From positions 1 to 64,000 of the forward strand of contig JAGRBZ010000004.1 in the NCBI GenBank assembly GCA_020433805.1: a stretch of 64,000 nucleotides of DNA, written 5' to 3'. Of this stretch, positions 50 to 26,205 are shown piece after piece. A program made the translations under genes and the position numbers. The stretch is from Anaerolineae bacterium (GTDB taxonomy: Bacteria; Chloroflexota; Anaerolineae; 4572-78; J111). Below the pieces are notes generated by a model. The model worked only from the letters and a program-made list of their open reading frames with translations, was not told where the DNA came from and made no database searches. Within the stretch, counting starts at the first letter, position 1, and every line of letters begins with the position of its first letter.

Positions 50-177
50 CATTAACCCGTGGAGAGCGGTAAAGACCCCAGGTTTTTGCCTAAATTGTAA
101 GCATGTTGCCCAATTGAGCACCTATAGACGCCTTTGCGGGTCTCATGTTCAAGAAAAACCTGGGGTCTCATGCTACC
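50..177. repeat. Nested inverted repeat upstream of the valS promoter
   Basis: Positions 73-87 and 154-168 are perfect 15-bp inverted copies (AGACCCCAGGTTTTT and its complement). An outer 7-bp pair, GGTAGCA at 50-56 and TGCTACC at 171-177, encloses them. A small hairpin at 125-142 lies inside. I see no gene in 1-237. The layout resembles a small non-autonomous mobile element or a strong bidirectional hairpin; which one is not decided. Confidence 0.55.
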
Positions 178-9472: not shown

Positions 9473-11107
9473 TTAGTATTTTCCGACGCCTAGGTTTTTC
9501 TCTATTCTTTGGCTGGCTCTGGACATTGAAAAAGCGAACACCCAGTAAACCAGAGCTACAAAAGCAAACGTTTCGCGCTGAAGGCCCAGCCACTCTTGCT
9601 GAGCTACTACAGTTTGGGCAATTTTAAGCAGATCAAATAGCCCCACAATAGCCACCAGCGATGTATCTTTGAACAAGCTAATACATTGTCCAACCAAGGC
9701 CGGAATAACCAAACGCAACGCCTGAGGCAAAATAATGAGCCGGGTTGTTTGTGCCCCATTCAGCCCCACAGCCACCGCGGCTTCGTATTGGCCTTTCGGA
9801 ATGGCCTGTAAGCCCCCACGCACGTTTTCAGCCAAATAGGCCGCGCTAAATAAAATAACACCAACGACCACCCGTAGTAAGTTGTCAATTTCAATCTCTT
9901 TGGGTAAGAAAATCGGCAGCATAATTTGGGCCATAAATAAAACGGTAATAAGAGGAACCCCACGAATAACCTCGATATAGACAATCGAGAAGGTTTTTAT
10001 CATATTACCCTGTAAATAATGCCCTACGGCCCAGAATATTCCAACAACAACCACAATTTGAAATATAGCATAGGAGATTGGTGATAGCGTAAACGTCCAA
10101 ACCGGTGGGTCGCGGAATATCAGTGGGATATTAAATGTCGTAGGTTCCGAGGGAAAACCAAACAGTCCCCAGAAAATCAACAGCAAGCCGGCTCCCCAAG
10201 CCCACGTGTAGGGCACCCCTCGTGTTGTGCTGCGACGGCCAAGCGCCATCAAAACCCCAATGGGAAATGAAACCACAATGCCGATAACGGAGATGACAAT
10301 CGTTAAAAGAAGTCCACCCCACAAGGTTGTCGGTACTAAGCCGAACGCAGATGTTTCAGGGCCAAATCCGCGCAGGATAAAGAGTATGGCAGGAATAGAA
10401 GCAAGCCAACTCCAAACTAATATTTGACGATATTTTTTAAGCGGCGAACCAAAATTCCAGGCAAAAACGCTGGCTGCTCCTAAGGCCAGTACAATTCCAA
10501 GAGATAACCAAACCCGCCACAGAAATTCAAAAGGATAGCGTCCCACGGCGAAGAGTTTTTTGTTGGCTCCAACAATACCCCAAATGGCGCCTGGTGTAAC
10601 CGGTCGAAGTAACGCGACACTTTCCGCATCCGTTCGGAACTCAGCACCAAAAACGGCCCAGGATAAAATGCCCCGGACCGCAAATACGATTAACAAGGAT
10701 ATAAGTAGGGTGGTTAAGGCTCCAAAAGGGCCCGTGTAAAGACTGTCTTTTAACCACTGAGACGGGCCAATCCAACGGCGTGTGGCGACACCGTAGGTAA
10801 CCAATGTAGCGCCAATAATCCACAAAAGCAAAATAATAGAGGTAAGTAAGGCTCCGTTCGTGATGGTCAGCACGAAATTCCCGAGCCCGGTGGGCACCCC
10901 GTTTGGAGCAAGGTTATACGACAGGCCGACCGGGTCGAGATTAAAACCTGTACGAATAACTATGATATTGAGAACGATGAGTACTATAAAAAATATAGTG
11001 TTTCCGAGACTGCTAAATACTGTGGTTCTCAACCATTGGGAGATGTTTAGCTGAAACCTTGGCCCACTTAGCGAGGTCGATTCCTTTGATTGAGTGATCG
11101 TTGCCAT
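9473..11107 (-). CDS. aapM: Amino-acid ABC transporter permease (AapM-like)
   Basis: Inner-membrane permease of the general L-amino-acid transporter; about 544 aa, clearly longer than the roughly 380 aa typical of proteobacterial AapM. There are several N-terminal hydrophobic helices. The C-terminal third is the classic HisMQ-type permease domain with the EAA loop GQYEAAVAVGLNG, which docks on the ATPase. I prefer ATG 11107, preceded by GGAG at 11118-11115. GTG 11119 is also possible, but AGGAGG at 11126-11121 lies only one base from it. No obvious promoter was found upstream, although the other half of the transporter is 15 kb away and ends in a terminator. Confidence 0.88.
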   Translation of the reverse strand: MATITQSKESTSLSGPRFQLNISQWLRTTVFSSLGNTIFFIVLIVLNIIVIRTGFNLDPVGLSYNLAPNGVPTGLGNFVLTITNGALLTSIILLLWIIGATLVTYGVATRRWIGPSQWLKDSLYTGPFGALTTLLISLLIVFAVRGILSWAVFGAEFRTDAESVALLRPVTPGAIWGIVGANKKLFAVGRYPFEFLWRVWLSLGIVLALGAASVFAWNFGSPLKKYRQILVWSWLASIPAILFILRGFGPETSAFGLVPTTLWGGLLLTIVISVIGIVVSFPIGVLMALGRRSTTRGVPYTWAWGAGLLLIFWGLFGFPSEPTTFNIPLIFRDPPVWTFTLSPISYAIFQIVVVVGIFWAVGHYLQGNMIKTFSIVYIEVIRGVPLITVLFMAQIMLPIFLPKEIEIDNLLRVVVGVILFSAAYLAENVRGGLQAIPKGQYEAAVAVGLNGAQTTRLIILPQALRLVIPALVGQCISLFKDTSLVAIVGLFDLLKIAQTVVAQQEWLGLQRETFAFVALVYWVFAFSMSRASQRIEKNLGVGKY

Positions 11108-11162
11108 CTTGTTCTCCACTCCTCCTATACTGTTTTTTATTATTTTTACCTGGAATAAAGCC

Positions 11163-11249
11163 GTGTTTCTTGAAGGTATCGCCCTACGAGCCGTTCACGT
11201 TCTTTGTGAAGAAAGACAACTCATCATTGATGATGATTTAAAGAAGTGA
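11163..11249 (+). CDS. Possible 28-aa small protein or gene remnant
   Basis: An open frame GTG 11163 to TGA 11249 encodes a protein-like, mixed hydrophobic and charged sequence ending IIDDDLKK. GGA at 11152-11154 is a weak ribosome site. Its stop overlaps the GTG start of the next small frame (GTGA), the arrangement of translationally coupled genes. It also lies at the edge of the block that splits the aap transporter, so it may be the tail of a truncated gene. I do not recognise it; existence as a gene is uncertain. Confidence 0.25.
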   Translation: MFLEGIALRAVHVLCEERQLIIDDDLKK

Positions 11250-11386
11250 CCCGCCAGAAGATAGGCCGAATTTTACAGGATATTTGCGATATACACAAGT
11301 ATTTGTGGATGCAAAGGTTATATATCCAAATTAAGCAAACTTTGGAAGCTAAATTGCGCGAAATTGAAAGCTCTCGCAAAATATAA
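11246..11386 (+). CDS. Possible 46-aa helical small protein
   Basis: GTG 11246 to TAA 11386 encodes 46 residues, lysine/arginine-rich and probably alpha-helical, with a central aromatic patch (HKYLWMQRLY). The start overlaps the preceding stop as GTGA. A regulator gene begins 49 bp downstream. No family is recognised. Codon choice looks protein-like but the frame is too short to be convincing by itself. Confidence 0.3.
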   Translation: MTRQKIGRILQDICDIHKYLWMQRLYIQIKQTLEAKLREIESSRKI

Positions 11387-11435
11387 AAGAACTTTTGTAA
11401 AAAGCTTTTTAATTAAAGAAATGGGAGTTTATAAG

Positions 11436-12113
11436 ATGTACGCGCTTTTAGTAGCGGAAGATGCTGATGACATTGCTATTCTCTCCACAGTTTTACAAAG
11501 AGCGGGGTTAGCTGTAACCACTGCTAAAAATCTAAAACGAGCTATGCGTAGCTGGACAGAACGCCCTGCGGATCTTGTTTTGGTTTCACTGCCCGGCGAT
11601 GATCTTTTTGAAGAGGTTCGTCATGTTCGAGCAGAAACAATTGTGCCTCTTATCTTGATCGCCCCCAGAATTGATGAATCTTATCATTACGAACTCTTAA
11701 AGCAGGGAGCCGATTTAGTTGTGACATCGCCCTTTAGCGCCAAGATACTCATCGCGCAGATAGGGGTTTTAATGCGTCGCTCGGTTAACGTGCCGGCTCT
11801 AGCGCTGCCGAATTTGTCGACCTCTGAATTTACGTTAAATCCGGAGTCTCGAACGGTCGAAGTCGAAGGCCGGTCTCCGCAAAGGTTGACGCATTTAGAA
11901 TTTCGGTTGTTGTATACCCTTATGATGAATCGAGGACAAATTATTCCCACTGAAACGATTGTAGAGCGGGTATGGGGATACACCGGCCAAGGTGATCGCG
12001 ATTTAATACGCGGCTTGGTCAGTCGGCTGCGAGCCAAAGTAGAAGTTGATCCTCGTAACCCTCAATACGTTTTAACAAGTCCTGGAATTGGTTATTCATT
12101 CAAAGGTGAATAA
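11436..12113 (+). CDS. OmpR/PhoB-type regulator with degenerate receiver domain
   Basis: DNA-binding regulator, 225 aa. The N-terminal half has the receiver fold (about 1-115), but the position of the phospho-acceptor aspartate reads ADLVLVSLPG, with Ser instead of Asp. The conserved Lys near the end of the fold is also replaced (VTSPF instead of KPF). Phosphorylation at the usual site is therefore not expected. The C-terminal winged helix (about 130-225) is intact, with the typical end PGIGYSFKG. ATG 11436 has GGGAG at 11423-11427, a better start than the upstream in-frame codons at 11364 and 11421. It heads the signalling cluster. Constitutive or ligand-controlled DNA binding is inferred. 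Confidence 0.88.
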   Translation: MYALLVAEDADDIAILSTVLQRAGLAVTTAKNLKRAMRSWTERPADLVLVSLPGDDLFEEVRHVRAETIVPLILIAPRIDESYHYELLKQGADLVVTSPFSAKILIAQIGVLMRRSVNVPALALPNLSTSEFTLNPESRTVEVEGRSPQRLTHLEFRLLYTLMMNRGQIIPTETIVERVWGYTGQGDRDLIRGLVSRLRAKVEVDPRNPQYVLTSPGIGYSFKGE

Positions 12114-12116
12114 CGG

Positions 12117-12544
12117 TTACAACTTCTCACCAACTATTTGCCTCTCAAAAGTACCTATATTCAATAAAATTTGATCGACCTTTGACTTTTTCCTCTTAAT
12201 TATTGTCTCCGTTGGCTAAATCTTACGTAATTCTACACTTTTTATATAAAACCAATACAAAACCTACATTTACAAACTATTCATCCCGACACTCTTTTCT
12301 GTTATATTTTTTGTGCAGCCTGTTTGTAAACTTGTAAGTAGGCTATTACCACAATCGACAGAGCACCGCACATAGGTACAGCCCCACAACGAAAGGTTGT
12401 GGCTAGAAAAGTAAAAATACCCCATAGGCTTTGATAAGCAAATGGAAAACCTCAGACCGAGTATTACAAGTTTTGTGCTTTTTGAATACCTCGATTTACA
12501 CAAATTAACATACGAGAGCACTCTGGAAAGCTGAGACAGTTATC
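12117..12544. other. 428-bp AT-rich intergenic region before the ethylene-receptor-like kinase
   Basis: No gene is seen. A short hairpin CCACAAC-GAAAG-GTTGTGG lies around 12383-12402. I compared the stretch 12300-12500 with riboswitch patterns I know and could not match it. The region probably holds the promoter and leader of the kinase gene. Confidence 0.5.
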
Positions 12545-13702
12545 ATGCAAGAACTCATTCCTCCCGATTTCCTTCCCCACGGCTATTGTCTGGTTTGGCA
12601 ACCTAATTTGGTGATGACTCATGTCATCTCCGATGCCATTATAACCTTGTCTTACTATTCAATCCCGGTAGCGTTAGCCTATTTTATCGCAGAAAGAAGA
12701 GATTTAGCTTATAAGTGGGTTTTTGGTCTATTCATCGCGTTTATTTTTGCTTGTGGTACTACGCATCTTATGGCTATTATCACTCTGTGGGAGCCACTTT
12801 ACTGGATAGATGGTTGGTTGAAAGCGGGTACCGCCGGTGTTTCGGTTGTTACCGCAGTGCTATTGTGGCCATTAATGCCCAAGGTGCTGGCTCTCCCTAG
12901 TCCAGCTCAGCTACGGGTCGCCAATCATAATCTCCACGTACAAATTGCAGAACGACAGCGGGCCGAAGGGGAAGTTCGTCGTTTGAATAGTGAGCTTGAA
13001 AAACGTGTCGTAGAACGTACGGCTCAATTTGAAGAAGCCAATAGTGAGCTAGAGTCCTTTGCTTATACGGTTTCTCACGACCTTCGTGCTCCCTTGCGAG
13101 CGATTAATGGTTTCTCCAATATCCTTTTGAAAGACTTTTCAGCCGAACTTACGGAGTCGGCTCAGCGCTATCTTACGTTGGTAAGCGAAAATGCTCAGCA
13201 GATGGGGAATTTAATTGACGATCTGCTCGCCTTCTCACGATTGGGTCGGCAGGAACTCAAGAAGAAAACGGTAGATATGACGGCTTTAGTTCAAAGCGTT
13301 ATAAAAAATTTGCATTATAAGCACGAGAATAGACAAATTGCGATAAAGGTAGGTGAACTGCCTCTATGTAACGGGGATGCAACATTACTCAAGCAAGTTT
13401 TTATTAACCTTTTAACCAACGCTATTAAATTTACCCGAGAATGTGACGTCGCTCGTATAGAGATAGGGGTTAAAAAGATTGATGGTGAAGTTGTTTACTT
13501 CGTTAAAGATAACGGTGTAGGTTTTAATATGGAATATGCCCATAAACTGTTTGGTGTTTTCCAACGGTTGCATAGAGCTGAAGATTATGAAGGCACAGGC
13601 GTTGGGCTAGCCATTGTTTTCCGGATCATACAACGCCACGGCGGCGAAATTTGGGCTGAGTCCCAAGAAGGTATGGGTGCAACATTTTACTTCACCCTAT
13701 AA
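12545..13702 (+). CDS. Sensor histidine kinase with ethylene-receptor-like membrane domain
   Basis: 385 aa membrane kinase. The first 110 residues form three hydrophobic helices that match the ethylene-binding domain of plant ETR1. Asp30, Tyr37, Pro41, Cys70 and His74 line up with ETR1 Asp25, Tyr32, Pro36, Cys65 and His69 at a constant offset of five. In ETR1, Cys65 and His69 are the copper ligands. A coiled coil (about 125-170) leads to HisKA with His178 (VSHDLRAPL), then HATPase with the N box NLLTNAIKFT and the G boxes DNGVGF and GTGVGLAI. There is no GAF domain, unlike ETR1. ATG 12545 has only weak ribosome-site signals. A single-domain receiver follows 38 bp later and is the likely partner. 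Copper and ethylene binding are inferred from the residues. Confidence 0.92.
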   Translation: MQELIPPDFLPHGYCLVWQPNLVMTHVISDAIITLSYYSIPVALAYFIAERRDLAYKWVFGLFIAFIFACGTTHLMAIITLWEPLYWIDGWLKAGTAGVSVVTAVLLWPLMPKVLALPSPAQLRVANHNLHVQIAERQRAEGEVRRLNSELEKRVVERTAQFEEANSELESFAYTVSHDLRAPLRAINGFSNILLKDFSAELTESAQRYLTLVSENAQQMGNLIDDLLAFSRLGRQELKKKTVDMTALVQSVIKNLHYKHENRQIAIKVGELPLCNGDATLLKQVFINLLTNAIKFTRECDVARIEIGVKKIDGEVVYFVKDNGVGFNMEYAHKLFGVFQRLHRAEDYEGTGVGLAIVFRIIQRHGGEIWAESQEGMGATFYFTL

Positions 13703-13740
13703 GTAAAAAATAGATCATTGTATAACAGGATGAGAAAGCC

Positions 13741-14178
13741 ATGTCAAATCAAGTAGAAATTCTTCTGGTTGAAGACAACCCAAGCGATCTGGAACTCGCT
13801 ATGCATGCCTTACAAAAATATAACTTGGCTAATAATATTGAGATCAAACGTGATGGAGCAGAAGCCTTAGATTTTTTGTTTTGCCAAGGGCGATACTCCA
13901 ACCGGGATATCGAACGCGGGCCAAAAATTGTGTTGCTCGATCTCAAGCTTCCCAAGGTTGATGGTTTGGAAGTTCTTAAGAAAATAAAAGCACACGCAAA
14001 AACACGGAATATTCCAGTTGTAGTGATGACTTCCTCTAATCAAGAGCGTGATATCGTAGAAAGTTACGAATTGGGAGTAAACAGTTATATTGTCAAACCT
14101 GTAGATTTTGAACAGTTTGCTGACGCCGTACGAAATATAGGGTTCTATTGGCTTATTCTTAACGAGCCGCCCTATTGA
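13741..14178 (+). CDS. Single-domain response regulator, Rcp1-like
   Basis: 145 aa cytoplasmic receiver with no output domain, of the type that pairs with bacteriophytochrome-like kinases (Rcp1). Acidic pocket ED at 11-12, phospho-acceptor Asp67 in [12 protein letters not shown], the switch residues MTSS near 96-99, and conserved Lys119 in YIVKPVDF are all present. The characteristic insert with [11 protein letters not shown] precedes the acceptor strand. AGGA lies a short distance before ATG 13741. It directly follows the ethylene-receptor-like kinase, so it probably receives or relays its phosphoryl group to the kinases downstream. Confidence 0.93.
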
Positions 14179-14251
14179 TTTCAGTGGACGTAAATTCTCT
14201 ATTCATCGTACTTTTAACCATGCCTATTCTTATTAAGGATTGTTGAGCACT

Positions 14252-17200
14252 GTGTTAATACCTCTAAACGTTTTGTTGCTTGAAGATCGGCCAAGCGATG
14301 CTGAATTGGTTATTTACGAACTTCGCCAGGCCGGATTTGAGCCAAACTGGATGTGTGTTGAAACCGAAGCAGATTACCTTGTCAATTTAACTCCGGAAGT
14401 AGATTTGATTTTGTCTGACTACACGCTGCCTGCTTTTGACGCGCTTCATGCCTTGCACGGATTGCAAAAACGCGGTCTCGATATCCCCTTTATTGTGGTA
14501 ACCGGTACCATCAGCGAAGAAGCGGCCGTAGCTTGTATGAAAGATGGCGCAGACGATTATCTCTTAAAAGATCGTTTAGCCCGGCTTGGAACGGCTGTGA
14601 GACAGGCGCTCGATCAAAAAGCGCTTCGACAAGAAAAGAAACAGGCCCAAACGGCCTTGCGTAAAAGTGAGGCACGTTTCCGGCTGTTAGCTGAAAATAC
14701 TTCGGATATTGTCTGCTTGCATGCTCCTAATGGACGCTATATTTACATAAGCCCTTCATTTAAGCAGGTCCTAGGTTACGAAATTGACTGGATATATGGG
14801 CAGGACCCTTTTGCGCTTTTTCATCCGGAAGACGCCGAGTTTGTCCGCGAGAAGATTGAACAGGTCATACGACGTGATCAGCCTATATCGAAAATTAGTT
14901 ACCGGATGCGCTGTCAATCAGGTGACTATATTTGGCTTGAAACCGCTATTCAACCGGTTTACGACGAGTCAGGACAGGTCAGCCATCTTGTTACCTCATC
15001 GCGCGATATTACAGAGCGTAAAAAAGCAGAAGAAAAATTAGAACAACGTGCTGCTCAACTGGCGCTTATTAACGAAATTGGTGGTCAAATTACTGCTGTT
15101 TTGGAGCTAGATACGCTCTTGACCCGAGCCGCCCGTTTGGTACAGGAGTCATTTGATTATCATCATGTTGCTCTGTTTTTAATTGAGGGCAATATCCTTC
15201 GTTTGAAGGCGCTCGCCGGCTCATATGATAAATATTTTATGGATGATCATACTCAACCTTTGTCCAAAGGGATTAATGGTTGGGTGGCTCGTAACGGCGA
15301 AAAGCTTGTCGCCAACAATGTCGATAACGAGCCTCATTATACGTCGCTTATTGCTGAACACAGTGTTACCCAGGCTGAACTATGCTTGCCCATTAAGGTC
15401 GCCGGTCAAACGGTAGGCGTGCTCGATATTCAAAGCCCACGGCGCAATGCGTTTGGAAAAAATGATATTATCGCGATGGAAGCTTTAACGAATCAGATTG
15501 CTGCTGCCATCAAAAATGCCCATTTATATGAACAGGCGCAGCAAGAAATTATTGAACACCGCGAAACAGAAATAGCCTTGCGGGAAAGTGAAGAACGCTT
15601 TAGACAAGTTATTACCTCTATAAGCCATCACGTTTACATGACAGAGGTCACAGCCGAGCAAATTATTGTGAATCGGTATCTGTCACCCAATGTGGAAAAC
15701 TTAACAGGCTATCCGCATTCTGAATTTTTAGCCAATGGTGGATTTTGGTCATCAAAAGTCATTCACCCTGATGATCACGGTTTAGAGGTGTCTCATTTGG
15801 CACGTTTGGCGCGTGGCAAAAATAATCAAATAGAGTACCGTCTTGTTAAAGCCAATGGAGAAATAATCTGGGTACTTGACAACGCCCGTGTAGAAAGATG
15901 CGGCACGTCTCAAATAATTTACGGCGTCGTAAGCGATATTACAGAGCGCAAACAAGCCGAGGAGGAAATTGTCCGGCTTTACCAAGCCGAGCGAGCACGC
16001 TATCAAGAAACCGAGACATTGCGCCAAGCCGCACTAGCCTTGGCCTCAATTGTCGATATGGATCAGGTCATCGAGAGTGTGCTAACGCACTTGCAAAAAG
16101 TGGTTGGTTATGATGGTGCTTCTTTACTGCTGTTACAAGGCGATGTGCTAAAAGTAATTGGGACACAGGGCGTTTCGCAACCCAATAAACCGGTTGGTCA
16201 TACGATATCGGTGAGCGACAACCCCGATGTCGTCGCTATATTAGAGGCTACAGAACCCCGCATTATAAATGCAACAATGGAAGAAATTTTTGATGCTGAC
16301 TTAGCTGATAAGATGGTAGACAGACTTTTTAGTTGGCTAGGCGTTCCCTTACGCATGGGTGAGCAAACTATTGGCGTTTTGTGTCTTAACAAACAGAAGC
16401 CTTATTTTTACACGGAGACCCATGCCCGTTTAGCCAGTGCCTACGCTGCACAGGCAGTTATTGCTATTGAAAATGCCCGGCTGCACACTGAAACTAACCA
16501 GCGAGCACACCAACTGGCCGTTATCCACGAGCTTGATCACGCCATCACTGCCAGTTTACGAATTGATGACGTCTATCAGGTTTTTGCCCGTCATACAAAA
16601 CGGCTTATCTCCTATCACTCTATGTCTATCACATTGCGTGATGACCATCTTGTACGCGTAGCTTTTGGAGCAGGTGTTAACAGCCTGCCGGTAGGGAAAA
16701 CAATATCTTTAAAGAATTCGGCTATCGGCCTGGTTATTACGCAGGGCCAGCCTATGATCCGCAATAACATCCTCGCCGATATACGTTTTTCTGAGGATGA
16801 AGAGATTATCGGCCACGGTAATCACTCAGAGATGATCATTCCTCTTCGTGTTAAACGTTTGGTTATCGGCACATGGAACATTGGGCATCAACAAATTGGG
16901 GCTTACAACCCAGACGATTTGGGTGTTGTACAATCTATGGCTGATCAGCTTGCTCTAGCAATAGAAAATGCACAACTGTTTGAACAAGCTCAACAAGAGA
17001 TTGCTGATCGCAAACAAGCTCAAGAAGAGTTGGAAGCGGAGCGTGCTTCATTAGCTTACCGCATCGAGGAGCGAACCTCTGAACTGAAAGTAGCTAATAG
17101 TGAGTTAGCTCGCGCCTCCCGGCTAAAAGATGAGTTTTTGGCCAGCATGAGCCATGAACTGCGAACCCCGCTCAATGCTATTTTGGGTATGGCCGAGATT

Positions 17201-18280
17201 TTGCTGGATGAAGTGTACGGTCCCGTTACCGAGAATCAAGTAAAGTCGATACGTACTGTTGAACAGAGTGGTCGGCACCTGCTTTCGCTTATCAATGATA
17301 TTCTTGATCTCTCCAAAATTGGTGCAGGCAAGTTATCGTTAAACCCTAATCCCGTTATCGTCAAAAATGTGTGCGAGGCCAGCCTGCAGTTTGTCAAACA
17401 AATGGCCCATAAAAACAAAATAAAGCTGCAGGCCAATTATGACGACGCCGTTCAAACGATATTGGCGGATGAACTGCGATTGAAACAAATTTTAGTGAAT
17501 TTGTTGAGCAACGCCGTGAAATTTACACCAGAAAGCGGATGTGTGGGGTTAGATGTTATTGGAGATCCAGCCAGACAGATGGCTAAGTTCACGGTTTGGG
17601 ATACCGGTATCGGCATTGCTCAAGAAGACACGGGTAAACTCTTTCAACCCTTTATTCAGCTCGACAGCCGTTTGGCGCGAGAGTTTTCAGGCACGGGATT
17701 AGGACTTTCTTTGGTATATCGCTTCACTGAAATGCATGGCGGAAGTGTATCGGTGGAAAGCGAAGTTGGTCAGGGGAGCTGTTTTACCGTCACGCTGCCT
17801 TGGCAGCCACCTTCTAAAGAAAAATCGGATTCTTACGACAACTCCGTTTCTCACAATGGGAATGCATTGGTCAAAAAAGATGTTAACCGAAAATTCTCCC
17901 CTGTTGTCTTGTTGGCTGAAGATAACGAAGCCAATATCGAGACCCTTTTTGATTATTTAACAGCCACCAATCACCAAGTTCTTATCGCGCGTAATGGTAT
18001 TGAGGCGACCCAACAGGCAAAAGAGCGGCGTCCAGATATTATTTTGATGGATATTCAAATGCCAGATATGGACGGTTTAGAAGCTATCCGACATCTACGC
18101 GGCGATCCGGAGCTTATGTGTATTCCTGTAATCGCACTAACAGCGCTGGCTATGCCCGGCGATAGAGAACGTTGTCTAGCAGCCGGAGCGAGTGATTATC
18201 TCAGCAAGCCGGTTAGCTTGAAACAACTTGTTGATGTGATTAACGTGCAATTAGAAGATAAAGATGCGCAAACAGTTTAA
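14252..18280 (+). CDS. Large hybrid histidine kinase (REC-PAS-GAF-PAS-GAF-GAF-HK-REC)
   Basis: About 1342 aa, no transmembrane helices, so cytoplasmic. In order: receiver (about 10-125, acceptor in LILSDYTLPAFD), PAS (about 150-270), GAF (about 285-435), PAS (about 455-575), two more GAF domains (about 600-745 and 760-910), and a coiled coil. Then come HisKA with His968 (MSHELRTPLN), HATPase with NLLSNAVKFT and DTGIGI, and a C-terminal receiver with LMDIQMPDMDG. The three GAF and two PAS domains could bind small ligands, but no chromophore cysteine motif was recognised. GTG 14252 is chosen with AAGGA at 14235-14239; TTG codons at 14240 and 14243 are alternatives. A phosphorelay role is inferred. 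Confidence 0.92.
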   Translation: MLIPLNVLLLEDRPSDAELVIYELRQAGFEPNWMCVETEADYLVNLTPEVDLILSDYTLPAFDALHALHGLQKRGLDIPFIVVTGTISEEAAVACMKDGADDYLLKDRLARLGTAVRQALDQKALRQEKKQAQTALRKSEARFRLLAENTSDIVCLHAPNGRYIYISPSFKQVLGYEIDWIYGQDPFALFHPEDAEFVREKIEQVIRRDQPISKISYRMRCQSGDYIWLETAIQPVYDESGQVSHLVTSSRDITERKKAEEKLEQRAAQLALINEIGGQITAVLELDTLLTRAARLVQESFDYHHVALFLIEGNILRLKALAGSYDKYFMDDHTQPLSKGINGWVARNGEKLVANNVDNEPHYTSLIAEHSVTQAELCLPIKVAGQTVGVLDIQSPRRNAFGKNDIIAMEALTNQIAAAIKNAHLYEQAQQEIIEHRETEIALRESEERFRQVITSISHHVYMTEVTAEQIIVNRYLSPNVENLTGYPHSEFLANGGFWSSKVIHPDDHGLEVSHLARLARGKNNQIEYRLVKANGEIIWVLDNARVERCGTSQIIYGVVSDITERKQAEEEIVRLYQAERARYQETETLRQAALALASIVDMDQVIESVLTHLQKVVGYDGASLLLLQGDVLKVIGTQGVSQPNKPVGHTISVSDNPDVVAILEATEPRIINATMEEIFDADLADKMVDRLFSWLGVPLRMGEQTIGVLCLNKQKPYFYTETHARLASAYAAQAVIAIENARLHTETNQRAHQLAVIHELDHAITASLRIDDVYQVFARHTKRLISYHSMSITLRDDHLVRVAFGAGVNSLPVGKTISLKNSAIGLVITQGQPMIRNNILADIRFSEDEEIIGHGNHSEMIIPLRVKRLVIGTWNIGHQQIGAYNPDDLGVVQSMADQLALAIENAQLFEQAQQEIADRKQAQEELEAERASLAYRIEERTSELKVANSELARASRLKDEFLASMSHELRTPLNAILGMAEILLDEVYGPVTENQVKSIRTVEQSGRHLLSLINDILDLSKIGAGKLSLNPNPVIVKNVCEASLQFVKQMAHKNKIKLQANYDDAVQTILADELRLKQILVNLLSNAVKFTPESGCVGLDVIGDPARQMAKFTVWDTGIGIAQEDTGKLFQPFIQLDSRLAREFSGTGLGLSLVYRFTEMHGGSVSVESEVGQGSCFTVTLPWQPPSKEKSDSYDNSVSHNGNALVKKDVNRKFSPVVLLAEDNEANIETLFDYLTATNHQVLIARNGIEATQQAKERRPDIILMDIQMPDMDGLEAIRHLRGDPELMCIPVIALTALAMPGDRERCLAAGASDYLSKPVSLKQLVDVINVQLEDKDAQTV

Positions 18281-18366
18281 GATTTTGATAACCAGACTTT
18301 TTGATTCTTATTTTAGTAAGATGCTCAATCAGTATCAGTTCTGCTCTATGAGCTAAAGGTAAATGT

Positions 18367-19824
18367 ATGCAGCAAAATAGCACTATTTTGATCGTCGATG
18401 ACGAACAATTTGGACGAGATACCTTAGAAGGTCTTCTCCACAACCAAGGATACAAGCTGGTTTTTGCCAGAAGCGGCCCCGAAGCATTATCTAAGGCAGA
18501 AATGGTTACTCCGGATGTAATTTTACTCGATGTTATGATGCCAGAGATGGACGGTTTTGAAGTATGTCTAAGAATCCGAGCTAATCCGCGGCTGGCCGAA
18601 ATTCCGATTATCTTACTGACTGCTCTTGGCGACTACAATTCGCGCTTAACCGGCATCAAATCCGGTGCCGATGATTTTATCACCAAACCGTTCGATGCCA
18701 TTGAATTGCGGGCCAGAATTCATACCACCACCCGCCTCAACCGTTATCGACGATTGAAAGAGCAGCGCGCAAGATTTGAATGGGTTGTTGAACAATCAGA
18801 TGATGGCTATCTGGTTATCAACGAACGCGATATGATTTTATATTGTAACGCAAAAGCTCAGGTTTACTTAGAGTTACCTGATGATGATAAAAAGGAAGTT
18901 GGTTGTTCTTTTATAGAGGCCATCCAACATCAGCACTACGAACCTCATCCGTTTGAAGCTTGGACAACCTGGCCCAAAATTCCCTATGACGATTTATCTG
19001 TGCCTCGCTATTTGGTTCGGCCTGAAACATCGACAGCCGAAGCTTTCTGGCTGCAGGTACATGTTTTCGAAGGGCCGGCCCGGGCTGAGGCCGGACGGAT
19101 TATTCGATTACGGGATGTTACGCAACAAATGACTTTGCAGCGAGATATGCGAGGTTTTCATGCAGCGGTGCTGCATAAACTGCGAACTCCGCTCACCATT
19201 GCTACCAGTAGTTTGCAACTGCTTGTTGAACATGCTCACCAGTTACCTGTCGACGAAATAATTGGCTTCTCAAAAACGGCCTATCTTGGTGTTAAGCGGT
19301 TGGGAAACGTGGTCAATGACGTTTTGCAATATGTGCACGTTCCCACTCTGGTTAAACCTGAAGAAGGGTTTAAGATCCTTCAACTGGAAGAAGTTTTATC
19401 CCAACTTTGCGCGTCTTTAGGGTTAAAGAATGTTACGGTCGCCAACTTAAATCATCTAAAAGATACACAGTTAAAACTATCAAGGCATGCCGTTGAACTC
19501 ATATTGATTGAAATTTTAGAGAATGCCAAGAAATTTCATCCAAATCAAAACCCTTCTATAGATGTGTCTGTGAGTTGTGTTGGTAGTGAAAAGATCGTTC
19601 TAAAGATAAGTGACAATGGAGTTACGCTTTCACCGGATCAGTTGCGTAAAGCATGGACACCCTATTACCAGGGTGAAAAATATTTTACCGGCGAAGTGGA
19701 TGGTATTGGATTGGGATTATCGATGGTGTCCTCTTTGGTCTGGGGGGTAGGAGGCAGATGTTCCATTTACAACTGTAGTCCAGGCCCCGGTGTTACCATA
19801 GAACTTGTACTTCCGTTAGCATAA
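18367..19824 (+). CDS. Receiver-PAS-histidine kinase (divergent G box)
   Basis: 485 aa, soluble. An N-terminal receiver (about 5-120) has the acceptor Asp in VILLDVMMPEMDG and Lys in ITKPFD. A PAS-like segment (about 130-255) follows. The dimerisation/phosphoacceptor helix reads VLHKLRTPLT and the catalytic domain has ILENAKKF. The first G box is DNGVTLS in place of the usual DNGPGI, while the second, GIGLGLSMV, is normal, so ATP handling may be altered. ATG 18367 follows AAAGGT. It is the first of a run of kinases that carry a receiver at the front instead of a sensor domain. Confidence 0.88.
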   Translation: MQQNSTILIVDDEQFGRDTLEGLLHNQGYKLVFARSGPEALSKAEMVTPDVILLDVMMPEMDGFEVCLRIRANPRLAEIPIILLTALGDYNSRLTGIKSGADDFITKPFDAIELRARIHTTTRLNRYRRLKEQRARFEWVVEQSDDGYLVINERDMILYCNAKAQVYLELPDDDKKEVGCSFIEAIQHQHYEPHPFEAWTTWPKIPYDDLSVPRYLVRPETSTAEAFWLQVHVFEGPARAEAGRIIRLRDVTQQMTLQRDMRGFHAAVLHKLRTPLTIATSSLQLLVEHAHQLPVDEIIGFSKTAYLGVKRLGNVVNDVLQYVHVPTLVKPEEGFKILQLEEVLSQLCASLGLKNVTVANLNHLKDTQLKLSRHAVELILIEILENAKKFHPNQNPSIDVSVSCVGSEKIVLKISDNGVTLSPDQLRKAWTPYYQGEKYFTGEVDGIGLGLSMVSSLVWGVGGRCSIYNCSPGPGVTIELVLPLA

Positions 19825-19848
19825 ACAAAGCACTACCTGGAGAGATAG

Positions 19849-20934
19849 ATGCGAGAACAACCCCACATCCTTATTGTTGACGATGAACCGACTTCTCGAG
19901 ACACAATGGAGGGTTTGCTTTATAAAGAAGATTACCATTTAACCTTTGCCCCTAACGTCTCTGCTGCCTTAGATCAACTTAGTCAAATTGAGCCGGATGT
20001 TATTCTTATGGACGTTATGATGCCCGTTATCGACGGTTTTGAAGCTTGTCGTCGTATTAAAAACAACAAACAGTGGCAGCATATTCCTCTGATTTTGGTT
20101 ACGGCGCTCAACAGTAAAGAGGATATTGTTCGTGGCCTTGATGCAGGAGCGGATGAGTTCTTGTCTAAACCTGTCAACGGGCTTGAACTACGGGCCAGGG
20201 TACGCTCTATGCTACGTATTAAAAGACAGTATGATGAGTTAGCTAAAATGTTACGGCTTCGCGAAGATATGGCCAGTATGATTGTTCATGATTTAAGAGT
20301 GCCACTAACTTCTATATTGGGCTTTAGCGAACTACTTCTGATTGAAAAAAATTTTGATGACCAGCAACGTTCCGATCTCGAACGAATTCATCAGCAGTCC
20401 CAGCGAATGCACAGTTTTGTCAATGATTTGTTGATTTTAGCCAAGGCTGAATGCGATCAGTTTATTCTCAATCGCTCCACAGTCGATATAACGCAACTTG
20501 TTCAAGACATCGAGCAAGATCATCGCATTATCGCCCAATCTAAAAAGGTGAAACTGGTTGTTCAAGTACCAAACCAACCTCAAGAAGTAGCACTCGATAA
20601 AAATTTATTTCACCGAGTGCTTGATAATCTCGTTTCAAATGCTTTGAAATTTTCTCCGTCCCATAGCAAGGTTACAGTGCGACTAGAGCCAGGCCCGTCA
20701 AATGGTTCTGGTAATCATGTGCGCATTAAAATTTTAGATGAAGGGCCGGGCGTTCCGCCTGAACATCGCCATCGTATTTTTAATAAATTTGAAGTTGTGA
20801 CCTTAAAGCAACAAACGGTATCACAAATTGGTCTGGGATTGGCTTTCTGCAAGATGGTTATGGAGGCTCACGGAGGGGAAATTTGGGTAGAAGATAACAT
20901 CCCTACGGGATCTGCCTTTATTTTGCAGCTATAG
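19849..20934 (+). CDS. Receiver-histidine kinase
   Basis: 361 aa, soluble, the minimal receiver-HisKA-HATPase arrangement. The receiver has the acceptor Asp in ILMDVMMPVIDG and Lys in LSKPVN. HisKA has its His in MIVHDLRVPLTS. The catalytic domain shows NLVSNALKFS, DEGPGVP and GLGLAFCK. GGAGAG sits four bases before ATG 19849. The gene starts 24 bp after the previous kinase, so they share a transcript. With no sensor region of its own, it presumably takes its input as phosphate on the receiver from another kinase in the cluster. Confidence 0.92.
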   Translation: MREQPHILIVDDEPTSRDTMEGLLYKEDYHLTFAPNVSAALDQLSQIEPDVILMDVMMPVIDGFEACRRIKNNKQWQHIPLILVTALNSKEDIVRGLDAGADEFLSKPVNGLELRARVRSMLRIKRQYDELAKMLRLREDMASMIVHDLRVPLTSILGFSELLLIEKNFDDQQRSDLERIHQQSQRMHSFVNDLLILAKAECDQFILNRSTVDITQLVQDIEQDHRIIAQSKKVKLVVQVPNQPQEVALDKNLFHRVLDNLVSNALKFSPSHSKVTVRLEPGPSNGSGNHVRIKILDEGPGVPPEHRHRIFNKFEVVTLKQQTVSQIGLGLAFCKMVMEAHGGEIWVEDNIPTGSAFILQL

Positions 20935-21073
20935 GCGCTTGTTGTGGAGCCATATTGAGTCATCTTCAGCGATTTTACCCGATGTTACATCGCGATACCC
21001 GCATGCTTATTGTGCTACTCTGCATAACCTACCCATTTAAATCAGCGGTAATCACAACTTTTAGGAAAAACAT

Positions 21074-23254
21074 ATGTCAATGCTTAACCTGAGCAGTACC
21101 GTACTCATTGTCGATGACGAAGAGTCAGGTCGCGATATATTAAAAGGTTTGTTGTTGAAACAGGGCTATCACCTGGATTTTGCCAGTAACGGCTCCGAAG
21201 CGTTGGCGAAGGCCTCGCAACTAACTCCAGATTTGATTTTGCTTGATGTCATGATGCCTGAGATGGATGGTTTTGAAGTCTGTCAACATATTCGGAATGA
21301 CCCCCATCTTGGTGAAATTCCAATTTTGCTGATTACGGCTTTAGATGATCAGGCCTCGCGGATGCAAGGTATTGAAGCTGGAGCTGATGATTTTATTTCC
21401 AAGCCATTTAACGGGGCTGAGTTAAAGACGCGAGTAAGAACTATTACTCGGCTTAACCGTTATCGGCGCTTGCTGGTTGAACGCATGTACCGGCAAGAAG
21501 CCGAGCAAGAAGTTTACCGTCGTAATAAGGAACTCACGTTACTTAACAACGTTATTACCACCGTTGCTTCAACGTTTGATGCCAAAGAAATTGTGCATAT
21601 TGCCTGTGATGCAATGACCCAGATTTTCGAAGGGTTCTCATCGGCAACAGCCGTGCTGTTCAACCAAAAATCCAAGCAAAGTGATACGGTTATCGAATAC
21701 AATTCTGCAGAATTTAGCTTAAAGCAGCCACATAGTAATATAGCGGCTATGAGCCATTCGGAAACAATATCTCTGGTTTCGCATCTTTCATACCAAGAAA
21801 TTAAGGCGTGTACTGCTCCGCAGGTATTTGTTCGAGGACAATATGGCCGTCAACTACCACATATTGATCGCCTTATGAATGATTATGACATTAACACTCT
21901 GATACTGATTCCCCTTCTGGCCCACGACGAAACTATCGGTTTTATTGAGCTAAAAAGCAATAAACCGTTTCATGCGCATGAGAGAACCCTTCATTTAGCT
22001 CAAAGTCTTGCGGCTGCTGTAAGTCAATCTCTGGAAGCTTCCAAACTCTACGGAGATTTACAGCAGTATGTTGAAAACCTAAAAGGTATTGTCGCCGAAC
22101 AAACTTTTGAACTAAGGATGGAGCGCGACCGCACGAAAGCTATTCTCGATGCTCTGGGCGAGGCCGTTGTAGTTACCGATGTTTCCGGCGTTGTTGAGTA
22201 TGTCAACCCTGCGGTGGAACAGTTGACCGGTTACAAAAATGAGACGATCGTTGGCCAAAAATGGAACTTCTTAAATCGCACCGATGCAGAGATGCATTTA
22301 TCTGAGAAGATTGGCCCAACAGTACGATCAGGGCTGATCTGGCGTGGCGAAGTTTACCAAAATCGCCAAGATAACTCATTTTACGATGCGGCTCTAACCG
22401 TTGCCCCTTTGTTCGATCCCCACCTCCCAGATCACGTAATTGGTTTTGTTAGTGTCCAACGCGATATTTCCCCTATCAAAGATGCCGAGCGACTTAAAGA
22501 TAAATTTGTAGCTAATGTAACCCATGAACTAAGTACGCCCCTTTCTATTGCTACTTTACTCGCCGACAACTTAGGCTTACTTTATGAGCATATTGAAGAT
22601 GAAAAGCGCCGCAAAATGATTCAAAATATTCAGAAACATATGCGGGTTTTGAACAATTTGGTTGATAATGTGTTGGAGATTTCGCATCTTGATAATAAGA
22701 ATACAGGTATAACAAAACAGCCAATCAATTTAGCCGCTCTTTTGTCTGAGGGTATTGAAGAACAACGTCCGTTAGCTCAATCAAAGCAACAAACTTTAAA
22801 GTTTGAGGGTTGTTCTCAGTTGATAGTAAGCGGAGATGAAGGACAGCTTCAGCAGGTTGTTCGAAATTTAATTAGCAATGCCATAAAGTATACACCAGAT
22901 CAAGGCTATATTACCTGTAAGTGTGTGCCTTTATCAAAAAGTTCTAGCAAAAACGAGGGTAAACACGAAGAATGGCCTGGATTTGCCGACCTACCGTCCC
23001 AAGATTGGGCGGCTCTACAGATTGTCGATACGGGCATTGGTATTAGTCACAGTGATTTACCCTATTTATTTGAACGATTTTTTCGCGTAAAAGATCAAGA
23101 AAATATTCGTGGTACCGGCCTAGGCCTCTCTATTGTTAAAGAATTAGTCAAACGTCACGCTGGACACGTGGCAGTCAATTCAACACCTAACGAAGGCAGT
23201 GTTTTTGCTGTTTATTTACCTCTACAACCTTTACTAAAGGAAAATGTCTTATGA
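21074..23254 (+). CDS. Receiver-GAF-PAS-histidine kinase
   Basis: 726 aa, soluble. In order: receiver (about 8-125, acceptor in LLDVMMPEMDG, Lys in ISKPFN), GAF-like domain (about 160-330), coiled coil, PAS (about 360-480, starting LDALGEAVVVTD), HisKA with NVTHELSTPLS, and HATPase with NLISNAIKYT, DTGIGI and GTGLGLSIV. AGGA precedes ATG 21074 by eight bases. Its stop overlaps the next regulator's start as ATGA, so the two are translationally coupled and are the clearest kinase/regulator pair in the cluster. A 139-bp gap upstream could hold a separate promoter. Confidence 0.93.
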   Translation: MSMLNLSSTVLIVDDEESGRDILKGLLLKQGYHLDFASNGSEALAKASQLTPDLILLDVMMPEMDGFEVCQHIRNDPHLGEIPILLITALDDQASRMQGIEAGADDFISKPFNGAELKTRVRTITRLNRYRRLLVERMYRQEAEQEVYRRNKELTLLNNVITTVASTFDAKEIVHIACDAMTQIFEGFSSATAVLFNQKSKQSDTVIEYNSAEFSLKQPHSNIAAMSHSETISLVSHLSYQEIKACTAPQVFVRGQYGRQLPHIDRLMNDYDINTLILIPLLAHDETIGFIELKSNKPFHAHERTLHLAQSLAAAVSQSLEASKLYGDLQQYVENLKGIVAEQTFELRMERDRTKAILDALGEAVVVTDVSGVVEYVNPAVEQLTGYKNETIVGQKWNFLNRTDAEMHLSEKIGPTVRSGLIWRGEVYQNRQDNSFYDAALTVAPLFDPHLPDHVIGFVSVQRDISPIKDAERLKDKFVANVTHELSTPLSIATLLADNLGLLYEHIEDEKRRKMIQNIQKHMRVLNNLVDNVLEISHLDNKNTGITKQPINLAALLSEGIEEQRPLAQSKQQTLKFEGCSQLIVSGDEGQLQQVVRNLISNAIKYTPDQGYITCKCVPLSKSSSKNEGKHEEWPGFADLPSQDWAALQIVDTGIGISHSDLPYLFERFFRVKDQENIRGTGLGLSIVKELVKRHAGHVAVNSTPNEGSVFAVYLPLQPLLKENVL

Positions 23255-23982
23255 GCCAAAATATTTCCATCCTTCTTGTAGACGATGAAGCTGAACTGTT
23301 AGAAAATATCGCCATGACTCTTGAAGCAGCCGATTTCTATGTAGAAAAGGCAAATAATGGACAAGAAGCCCTAAACGCGCTCAAAGCCCAATCATTCAAT
23401 CTCATCTTGGCCGATATTGCAATGCCGGACATGAACGGTTATCAATTGCTAGATCGTATTCGCGAAAATCAACGGTGGGCCTCAGTACCATTTGTATTTT
23501 TAACCGCTCGAAAGCTTGATAGTGATATACGGTACGGTAAGTCACTCGGTGTAGATGATTATTTGACAAAACCCATTAATGCCGAGGATCTCCTGGCAGT
23601 AGTTCAGGGCAAACTACGCCGGGCAAAATATCTTCAATCGCAACCTCAACCTCAACCAAAGATTGATTTTATTGCGACCACGCATAATGTTGAGGTTGGT
23701 CCGCTAAAAATGGATATAGAACGGCACCAAGTGCGTCTACGCAATCGGAATATTAAATTATCGGCCAGAGAGTTTGCTTTGTTAGAAGTTTTTGCGCGTA
23801 ATCCTAACAAGGTGTTTTCTACACGCCAACTTATTACCGTCACCCACGAAAACCTAAAAGATCACGGTTCCAATACCGACGCCCTGGTTCGCTCGATTAT
23901 TCATTCCTTACGTCGAAAAATGGGTAACTATATAGAAAATGTTCGTGGTCTAGGTTATCGGCTTGTATTGCCGGAAGCCTAA
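23251..23982 (+). CDS. OmpR/PhoB-type response regulator
   Basis: 243 aa transcription factor. The receiver (1-120) keeps the acidic pocket DDE, the acceptor Asp in LILADIAMPDMNG, Thr in LTAR and Lys in LTKPIN, so phosphorylation is expected. The winged helix (about 145-243) has the family ending VRGLGYRLV. A short Gln-Pro linker (QPQPQPK) joins the two. The start overlaps the preceding kinase stop by four bases. It is the only regulator in the cluster with both an intact acceptor and a DNA-binding domain, and the secreted calcium-binding protein gene downstream is a candidate target. Confidence 0.94.
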   Translation: MSQNISILLVDDEAELLENIAMTLEAADFYVEKANNGQEALNALKAQSFNLILADIAMPDMNGYQLLDRIRENQRWASVPFVFLTARKLDSDIRYGKSLGVDDYLTKPINAEDLLAVVQGKLRRAKYLQSQPQPQPKIDFIATTHNVEVGPLKMDIERHQVRLRNRNIKLSAREFALLEVFARNPNKVFSTRQLITVTHENLKDHGSNTDALVRSIIHSLRRKMGNYIENVRGLGYRLVLPEA

Positions 23983-24020
23983 CCCGTTCAATGCCTTGCG
24001 CATTTGAATATTCTCCCCGT

Positions 24021-24050
24021 AATGCACCCTTGATTAGAGGGTGCATTTTT
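24021..24050 (+). terminator. Terminator of the signalling cluster
   Basis: AATGCACCCT at 24021-24030 pairs with AGGGTGCATT at 24038-24047, followed by TTT. It closes the run of kinase and regulator genes. Confidence 0.85.
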
Positions 24051-24051
24051 A

Positions 24052-24086
24052 TTTCTACACTTTTCTACGTTTTCTACACTTTCTAC
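24052..24086. promoter_or_regulatory. Four TTTCTAC direct repeats at one-turn spacing
   Basis: TTTCTAC starts at 24052, 24062, 24071 and 24080, so it recurs every 9-10 bp, about one helical turn. It lies between the OmpR-type regulator and the secreted protein gene, about 190 bp before the latter. Direct repeats of this spacing are typical of OmpR-family binding sites. Function as an operator is inferred. Confidence 0.4.
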
Positions 24087-24270
24087 AAAATTCATTATAC
24101 AAACCATCTTTAACATTAACTACTTCAAACTAGATTCTGCATACAAATCGACCTTAACAATAACTGATTCAGACTCAGAATTTAGTTATTATAAAACTAC
24201 ACCCTTTTACTAAATCTAAATGTAAATAAACTTCGAAATCCGCTGTATTTATGTAAGGAGATTATAAAGT

Positions 24271-26103
24271 ATGGTAAAAAACACTTATGAACATTTTCTG
24301 AGCGCGAAAGCCAAACGCAAAGGGCTTCAACTATCTTTTGTTTTCTTAGCGGCTTGTGTTGCATTTTTTTGTTTGACCCAGTTCGCCTTGGCCGATCCCC
24401 CCGTCGATGCCTATGCCGACTCCGTCGCCGGGAGTAGTGGCAGTGTTACAAGTGGTAATGATGCCACGGGCGCTCCTGACAATTCTCCGGCCTTGATTGT
24501 TGCTACTTTGATTTCCACGAGTGGTTTAACATTAGATATGGGCGAAGGTGAAGAAGGAACCGGTGATTTGATTGTTTACTACATTGGCGGTTCAGTCGGT
24601 TTGAACCCCGATGTTTCTTTCCTTGATAAAAATAAACAGGTAATAGCTACGGTTGGCAACTTTCCCATTCAGATAGGCCTTGGGCAGTTTTTAACCTCCA
24701 CTGTGGTTTATACAGGTTTTCCAACACGCTATCGTTATGTTCGTTTTGAAACAGAAAGTTTAGCTCTCTTCAGTGTGGATGCCGTTGAGGCCACCACCTA
24801 CAGCCCCGATGATGACGGCGACGGCATTCTCAACAGCGATGAAGATCGCAACCGAGATGGCAACCTAGATAACGACGATACTGACAATGATGGCATCCCT
24901 AACTATCAGGACACTGATGATGATGGCGATGGCACAGCTACAGTGACAGAGTGCCCTAGTGATCCCTGCACCGATAGTGATGGTGACACCGTCCCTGATT
25001 ACCTTGAGCCAAATAATGTTGACACCGACACGGACAGCGCCATGAACCACGCCGATAACGACGATGACGGTGATACCGTTCCTACTGCCGATGAAGATAT
25101 TAACGGTAACGGCGATCCCACTGACGATGATTTGGATGGTGACGGCACCCCCAACTATCTCGACGAAGATGACGATGGCGACGGCACCAACACAATTGAT
25201 GAAGGTACAGGGGATACGGATGGTGATGGTATTCCTGATTATCTCGATCCCGATGATAATCCTAATAGTGACAGCGATGGTGATGGAATTATTGATAGTG
25301 AAGAAGATCCCGACGGCGATGGTAATCCGCTTAATGATGATACCGATGGTGACGGCACCCCTAACTATCTCGACGAAGATGACGATGATGACGGCACTAA
25401 CACGATTGATGAAGGTGCGGGTGATACGGACGGCGATAATATTCCTAATTATCTTGATCGTGATGACGGCGGCCCTGGAGCAGGCGATAGTGATGGAGAT
25501 GGGCTAGATGATAATGAAGAAGATCCCGACGGCGATGGTAATCCGCTCAACGATGATACCGATGATGATGGTACGCCAAACTATATGGACAGTGATGATG
25601 ATGGTGATGGCATCCCCACCGCAAGCGAAGATTTCGATGGTGATGGCAATTTGACAGATGATGATATCGATGATGACGGAATACCCCACTATCTGGATAA
25701 TGACGAGGATGGCGATGGCGAGACCACGCCACTGGAAGATAGCAACAGCGACGGCGACGGCAATCCTAGCACCAATCCCGATGACACTGATGGCGACAAC
25801 ATTCCCGATTATTTAGATGCCGATGACGATGGCCCCGGAGCCGGTGACAGTGATAACGATACGGTCGATGATGACGAAGAGGATATAGATGGCGATGGTA
25901 ATCCCCTCAATGATGATACCGACAACGACGGAATTCCGAACTATATGGATACAGATGATGATGGCGATGGTATTCCTACCGCCGATGAAGACAATAACCA
26001 CGATGGGGATCTGTGGAACGATGATAAGGATAACGATGGAACTTCTGATTTCCTTGATCCAACTACGAAAATAGAAATTTTTATGCCTCTAATCCTTCGC
26101 TAA
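24271..26103 (+). CDS. Secreted Asp-rich calcium-binding protein (thrombospondin type 3-like repeats)
   Basis: 610 aa. The signal peptide covers about 20-42 (ends FALADPP). A beta-rich region (about 43-170) may be a small adhesion or carbohydrate-binding-like domain. From about 175 to 598 there are more than twenty DxDxDG-type units such as DTDGDGIPDYLD and EDPDGDGNPLNDD, as in thrombospondin type 3 repeats, each expected to bind calcium. The protein ends IEIFMPLILR. A short hydrophobic PLxLR-like tail is, to my knowledge, common in exported Chloroflexota proteins and may be a sorting signal. GGAG precedes ATG 24271. The many overlapping frames here are by-products of the GAT/GAC repeats. Likely surface or matrix role, inferred. 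Confidence 0.92.
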   Translation: MVKNTYEHFLSAKAKRKGLQLSFVFLAACVAFFCLTQFALADPPVDAYADSVAGSSGSVTSGNDATGAPDNSPALIVATLISTSGLTLDMGEGEEGTGDLIVYYIGGSVGLNPDVSFLDKNKQVIATVGNFPIQIGLGQFLTSTVVYTGFPTRYRYVRFETESLALFSVDAVEATTYSPDDDGDGILNSDEDRNRDGNLDNDDTDNDGIPNYQDTDDDGDGTATVTECPSDPCTDSDGDTVPDYLEPNNVDTDTDSAMNHADNDDDGDTVPTADEDINGNGDPTDDDLDGDGTPNYLDEDDDGDGTNTIDEGTGDTDGDGIPDYLDPDDNPNSDSDGDGIIDSEEDPDGDGNPLNDDTDGDGTPNYLDEDDDDDGTNTIDEGAGDTDGDNIPNYLDRDDGGPGAGDSDGDGLDDNEEDPDGDGNPLNDDTDDDGTPNYMDSDDDGDGIPTASEDFDGDGNLTDDDIDDDGIPHYLDNDEDGDGETTPLEDSNSDGDGNPSTNPDDTDGDNIPDYLDADDDGPGAGDSDNDTVDDDEEDIDGDGNPLNDDTDNDGIPNYMDTDDDGDGIPTADEDNNHDGDLWNDDKDNDGTSDFLDPTTKIEIFMPLILR

Positions 26104-26138
26104 AGTAATACCCTTTAAAGGTAAACTAGCTTCTCAAT

Positions 26139-26176
26139 AAAAAAGCCACCCGAGGCAACCGGGTGGCTTTTTTTTA
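26139..26176. terminator. Bidirectional terminator between the Asp-rich protein gene and aapQ
   Basis: AAAAAAGCCACCC and GGGTGGCTTTTTT form a 13-bp stem with a nine-base loop and T runs on both strands. It ends the plus-strand cluster and, on the minus strand, the aapJ-aapQ transcript. Confidence 0.9.
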
Positions 26177-26205
26177 TAACTAGTTTTTTATAACTAGTAT
26201 AGAAA

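Follow-up and report, generated by a model that had tools for sequence, protein, structure and literature searches.

The locus described here raises the question of whether a bacterium of the phylum Chloroflexota encodes a receptor for ethylene. In the window, by which we mean the whole 64,000-nt stretch of DNA analysed, a gene for a histidine kinase with an ETR1-like N terminus is followed by one for a lone receiver (Table 1). With a probability of roughly 0.78, we read the kinase as a bacterial ethylene receptor, a membrane protein gated by Cu(I) and ethylene and working with an Rcp1-like receiver, in which an alphaproteobacterial-type sensor is mounted on a bacteriophytochrome-type transmitter.

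Table 1. Features of the locus, with positions in the window or residues of the kinase, strand and evidence
Feature	Position	Strand	Evidence
Ethylene-binding-domain (EBD) histidine kinase, 385 aa	12545..13702	+	ATG start; Pfam domains, kinase motifs
PHGYCLVW motif, residues 11-18, just N-terminal of TM1	12575..12598	+	alignment
Ethylene-binding domain ETR1_N (PF25487), residues 22-117	12608..12895	+	profile search, residue table
Coiled-coil linker of EBD kinase	residues about 118-169		
HisKA of EBD kinase, H178	residues 170-234		Pfam
HATPase_c of EBD kinase	residues 277-385		Pfam
Rcp1-like single-domain response regulator, 145 aa; D67 (phospho-acceptor), T97, K119	13741..14178	+	Pfam, PDB matches
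OmpR-family response regulator upstream of EBD kinase, 431-bp gap	11364..12113	+	Pfam
Hybrid kinase RR-PAS-GAF-PAS-GAF-GAF-HisKA-HATPase-RR, 61 bp after receiver gene	14240..18280	+	Pfam
Downstream cluster: RR-HK (18367), RR-HK (19849), RR-GAF-PAS-HK (21074), OmpR-type RR (23251)	18367..23982	+	Pfam
Terminator-like hairpin, 11 pairs and T tract, after last kinase-cluster gene	24021..24047	+	consensus scan
15.1-kb stretch with whole two-component cluster	11120..26205	.	comparison with eight family relatives

The N-terminal domain belongs to the ethylene-binding family. It covers positions 2-97 of the 97-position PF25487 profile with E=5.1e-38, and its score of 129.7-133.1 bits, against a cut-off of 27 bits, compares with 132.0 bits for AzoEtr1 on the same model; a profile match this strong should be far beyond chance. 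The preliminary description had placed the domain in this family and had named D30, Y37, P41, C70 and H74 as its copper-site residues, and both statements stand; with I40 and I67, the equivalents of ETR1 I35 and I62, the aligned residues fill all seven ethylene-binding positions of ETR1. D25 and Y32 are the two residues that reportedly (Wang et al. 2006) complete the seven-residue set in ETR1. Of that set, C65 and H69 form the copper site, and I35, P36 and I62 are essential (PMC6586836). AzoEtr1 has identical residues at all seven columns, and its authors likewise describe the full set as kept (PMC11819568). The AzoEtr1 sequence in the alignment (L025) came from an Azospirillum brasilense Sp7 plasmid record; because AzoEtr1 matches at every one of the seven columns, the residue check does not depend on the ETR1 letters alone. 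Around TM1 and TM2, the alignment has a one-residue loop gap relative to some relatives and no gap relative to ETR1 at the key positions, and a sequence search of the PDB with the domain gave nothing meaningful. Identity is only 36.5% to ETR1 over residues 22-117, a point against the reading, and 57-58% to AzoEtr1, whose residues 1-130 bind 14C-ethylene saturably and whose gene disruption abolishes binding (PMC11819568). Since the seven residues are kept and the domain is close to this ethylene-binding relative in both sequence and score, ethylene binding by the window domain is likely.

The main rival explanation accepts Cu(I) binding but supposes that the natural signal is copper itself or a redox change at its binding site, which would make the kinase and its receiver a copper sensor. 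The retained Cys and His ligands suit such a role, and so do the several copper-type P-ATPases encoded in the host genome, which fit the ethylene receptor as well, although these enzymes are near-universal and their presence says little. On the other hand, the pocket positions with a bearing on ethylene and not just on copper (Y37, I40, P41 and I67) are kept as well, the two-component cluster is without any copper-handling gene, and ethylene binding is known for relatives that share the site (PMC11819568, PMC6682694). We consider the copper sensor improbable and continue with the ethylene receptor.

Just ahead of TM1, the PHGYCLVW motif takes the place of the Cys4/Cys6 region of the plant receptors; it is common to proteobacterial and cyanobacterial relatives and is not found in ETR1. 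A PHGxCxxW-like motif occurs at this point in 11 of the 14 bacterial domains compared (the window's, L018, L025-L030 and L032-L034), and the Cys and His of the motif might form a disulfide in the dimer or contact copper at a second point.

The architecture around the domain is compact. Pfam recognises exactly three domains, ETR1_N, HisKA and HATPase_c, with a charged, coiled-coil-like stretch separating the sensor from the kinase core, and even with the limit relaxed to E=10 no GAF, PAS or PHY domain is found, leaving the EBD as the only recognisable input. The direct joining of sensor and kinase by a coiled coil, as first proposed from the letters of the sequence, is thus borne out. The hydropathy average, used here in place of a topology program, gives three hydrophobic stretches near the N terminus (about 22-49, 52-85 and 88-118), matching the three membrane-spanning helices expected in the family. 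The H, N, G1, F and G2 boxes are all intact, as in canonical HisKA histidine kinases: HDLRAPL at 178, NLLTNAIKF at 288, DNGVGF at 322, FGVFQRLH at 336 and GTGVGLAI at 350. Lacking the PAS-GAF-PHY chromophore module of bacteriophytochromes in the same search, the protein is not a phytochrome, and lacking a cyanobacteriochrome GAF, it is not a dual ethylene and light receptor of the SynEtr1/UirS type. A single-sequence AlphaFold model was too poor for use (mean pLDDT 48.9) and was set aside. The host had been described as non-cyanobacterial and heterotrophic-looking; its 89.6%-complete genome yields no photosynthetic reaction-centre protein (PF00124), consistent with a non-phototroph.

The receiver gene starts 38 bp downstream of the kinase and its product, with its phosphorylation residues intact, is indeed Rcp1-like, as had been proposed: phmmer gives E=1e-25 to Rcp1 (1jlk, 1i3c) and 3e-26 to RcpA, and RcpB, RcpA and Rcp1 are among its relatives named in the PDB (E=3.5e-27 to 1e-25). 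It is the probable cognate partner of the kinase. The receiver is 59% identical to the one beside a Duganella bacteriophytochrome, and the kinase core is about 51% identical to Duganella bacteriophytochromes (PAS-GAF-PHY-HK by Pfam). Core and receiver are of the bacteriophytochrome/Rcp1 type, in the same gene order as phytochrome systems; what differs is the input, a light-sensing PAS-GAF-PHY module in Duganella and an EBD here. Because the core is also near PAS kinases such as L004 of Chloroflexota (56%), the transmitter class is wider than the phytochromes. For most other EBD proteins in the comparison, identity between their kinase and that of the window is only about 26-33%; the Deinococcus kinase reaches 38%, and a scan of the genome contigs with the full-length protein returned only kinase-core relatives. 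EBD proteins clearly swap transmitters, with HWE in Blastomonas, HisKA_2 in Kovacikia and HisKA elsewhere; given this variety and the separate history of the kinase half, the window gene is a mosaic of an ethylene-type sensor with a phytochrome-type transmitter and receiver. A sub-threshold ETR1_N relative of 21-26 bits (L021, G245:C34:177959-178213), with CGLGH in the second helix and the Asp apparently absent, belongs to a PAS-HK that shares 48% identity with the window protein in the kinase core; it may be a distant relative.

With no GAF or PAS domain, a bacteriophytochrome-type kinase core and an Rcp1-like next gene, the natural reading of the two proteins is a compact two-component pair gated by ethylene and Cu(I). 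We infer copper and ethylene binding, the dimer and the course of signalling from AzoEtr1, SynEtr1 and ETR1. Cys70 and His74 of the three-helix N-terminal domain would hold Cu(I) at the dimer interface, and ethylene, or a similar small olefin, would bind at that ion and shift the transmembrane helices; the coiled coil would relay the shift to the dimerisation helices and change the rate of autophosphorylation at His178. The phosphate would then pass to Asp67 of the receiver, which, having no output domain, would act by protein contact. In origin, the sensor domain probably came from an alphaproteobacterial-type source and was joined to a bacteriophytochrome-type transmitter.

The domain is rare in Chloroflexota, a phylum assignment drawn from the Anaerolineae kinase relative and from gene content. 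PF25487 exceeds its cut-off in 4 of the 400 genomes of the phylum, the window's own included, and in the window's class in a single genome of 346, again the window's own; the orders of G343 and G123 have it in 1 of 47 and 1 of 16 genomes, both copies being already among the four. The weak Chloroflexota matches L002, L003 and L022-L024 were dropped as chance, three of them being KdpA-like and two resembling other membrane enzymes by translation. At the position equivalent to Pro36, the three other Chloroflexota copies (G343, G352 and G123; L018-L020) have Ser and a Deinococcus plasmid copy (L031) has Ala, so that among these five the full seven-residue site is present in the window copy only. 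The Ser or Ala sets the Chloroflexota (G343, G352 and G123) and Deinococcus copies apart from a Pro-bearing proteobacterial, cyanobacterial and plant group. These copies without the Pro36 equivalent indicate that an incomplete site need not mean loss of the fold, and the window domain might likewise have been kept as a membrane anchor, as a dimeriser or for another hydrophobic ligand, its ethylene binding lost; the window copy, however, keeps all seven residues, including the one that drifts in the others, and we find such a loss even less probable than the copper sensor.

A tree of the domain, which the preliminary description had put forward as a check, agrees with an origin outside the phylum. 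In 15 rows, a small sample with most comparison sequences from plasmid records, the window domain falls among alphaproteobacterial domains (support 100/99, or 92/98 with ETR1 left out), apart from the Chloroflexota/Deinococcus group. Grouping the four Chloroflexota rows in one clade is rejected (p-AU 0.02), but no longer when Deinococcus is counted in (0.13). Lateral acquisition of the EBD from an alphaproteobacterial-type source appears moderately supported. A further step would be to suppose that the input was swapped in nature, an EBD gained by lateral transfer replacing a light-sensing (or PAS) module upstream of the transmitter and its receiver. The outcome would be a phytochrome-style pathway gated by ethylene alone, in a non-photosynthetic member of Chloroflexota that is nearly the only one of its class to have it; to this we give even odds. 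EBDs occur on many plasmids, that of AzoEtr1 included: 19 plasmid records contain one, mostly from Alphaproteobacteria and cyanobacteria, and the phage records searched contain none.

Bacterial EBD kinases are already known, and a review describes EBD proteins of differing output for many Proteobacteria and cyanobacteria (PMC7700396). The novelty that the preliminary description implied for a heterotrophic form falls away, as AzoEtr1, a proven receptor, comes from a heterotroph (PMC11819568). AzoEtr1 resembles the window protein in its seven residues, in the PHGxCxxW motif and in being followed by a lone receiver gene (135 aa in Azospirillum), but is 525 aa long, has a PAS domain and has a different kinase; neither this kinase nor its receiver is among the matches listed for the window kinase core and receiver, respectively. 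The implied novelty of the compact form fares no better, as EBD-HK proteins of about 380 aa are carried by sphingomonad plasmids: those of Novosphingobium sp. ES2-1 p2 (384 aa) and Blastomonas RAC04 (381 aa) also have the EBD on a kinase core without GAF or PAS and receiver genes adjacent. They differ in kinase type (HWE in Blastomonas), and their receivers are not among the matches listed for that of the window. The Novosphingobium gene pair (L027) lies near a type II Cas9 gene, and p2 is a conjugative plasmid.

SynEtr1/UirS/PixA (slr1212) of Synechocystis shares the N-terminal EBD on a histidine kinase but has a cyanobacteriochrome photosensor between the two (PMC6682694), whereas in the window transmitter and receiver are phytochrome-type although the EBD is the only input. 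Plant ETR1 and ERS1 share the seven residues in register; the window kinase differs from them in lacking GAF. What is new, then, is the host phylum, the complete site among Chloroflexota copies and the joining of an EBD to a phytochrome-type transmitter; a literature search of incomplete coverage found no mention of ethylene receptors in Chloroflexota. The gene adds this phylum to those with a candidate ethylene sensor whose binding site is complete. As its 385-aa product has no input domain besides the EBD, it offers a clean test case for an EBD driving a kinase, free of the GAF and light-sensing modules that make SynEtr1 and ETR1 harder to interpret. The role of Pro36 could readily be tested on naturally occurring copies, some of which keep Pro at this position while others have Ser or Ala.

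The plus-strand genes 11364-26103 lie between two minus-strand amino-acid ABC permease genes, 9473-11119 and 26206-27876, which places the two-component cluster inside an amino-acid ABC operon. In eight family relatives (L036-L043) the same permeases are adjacent, their aligned ends 1-81 bp apart, and are followed by the same ATPase gene; here they are 15,086 bp apart, and the cluster is therefore at a derived position. The nearness of the EBD to alphaproteobacterial domains and the 1248-contig assembly could be taken as signs of a proteobacterial contaminant, misassembled or misbinned into the genome. We regard contamination as very improbable, since the ABC genes on both sides of the same contig, mostly 58-92% identical to those of the eight family members, and the adjoining kinases, with closest relatives in the same family at 50-53% full-length identity, tie the contig to the family; the GC shift, to 42-46%, is mild.

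The preliminary description had also drawn the receiver-rich kinase cluster into the ethylene pathway, and this is not supported. The hybrid kinase has cognates in relatives without the EBD kinase; in G003 the cognates of 18367, 19849, 21074 and 23251 lie together in the same order, and G002 and G008 have similar kinase groups; neither the EBD kinase nor its receiver accompanies them in any of the three. The ethylene pair thus seems to have been added to a cluster shared across the family, and a single phosphorelay of the pair and the downstream kinases is no more than a possibility. The hairpin behind the last kinase-cluster gene is the likely end of the transcription unit, with the reservation that in this consensus scan terminator-like hairpins overall were no more numerous than in shuffles. 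At the borders of the 15-kb stretch, we found no convincing repeats or tRNA genes. The cluster ends with a gene (24271-26103) for a secreted-looking 610-aa protein with Asp/Gly-rich repeats of the DxDGDxxxDxD type and no Pfam match; at the loci L066 and L069, 650-aa proteins that look unrelated to it adjoin the cognates of the regulator at 23251. Between this last cluster gene and the permease, at 26139-26197, a perfect 14-nt inverted repeat precedes two tandem copies of a 14-nt direct repeat, TTTTTTATAACTAG.
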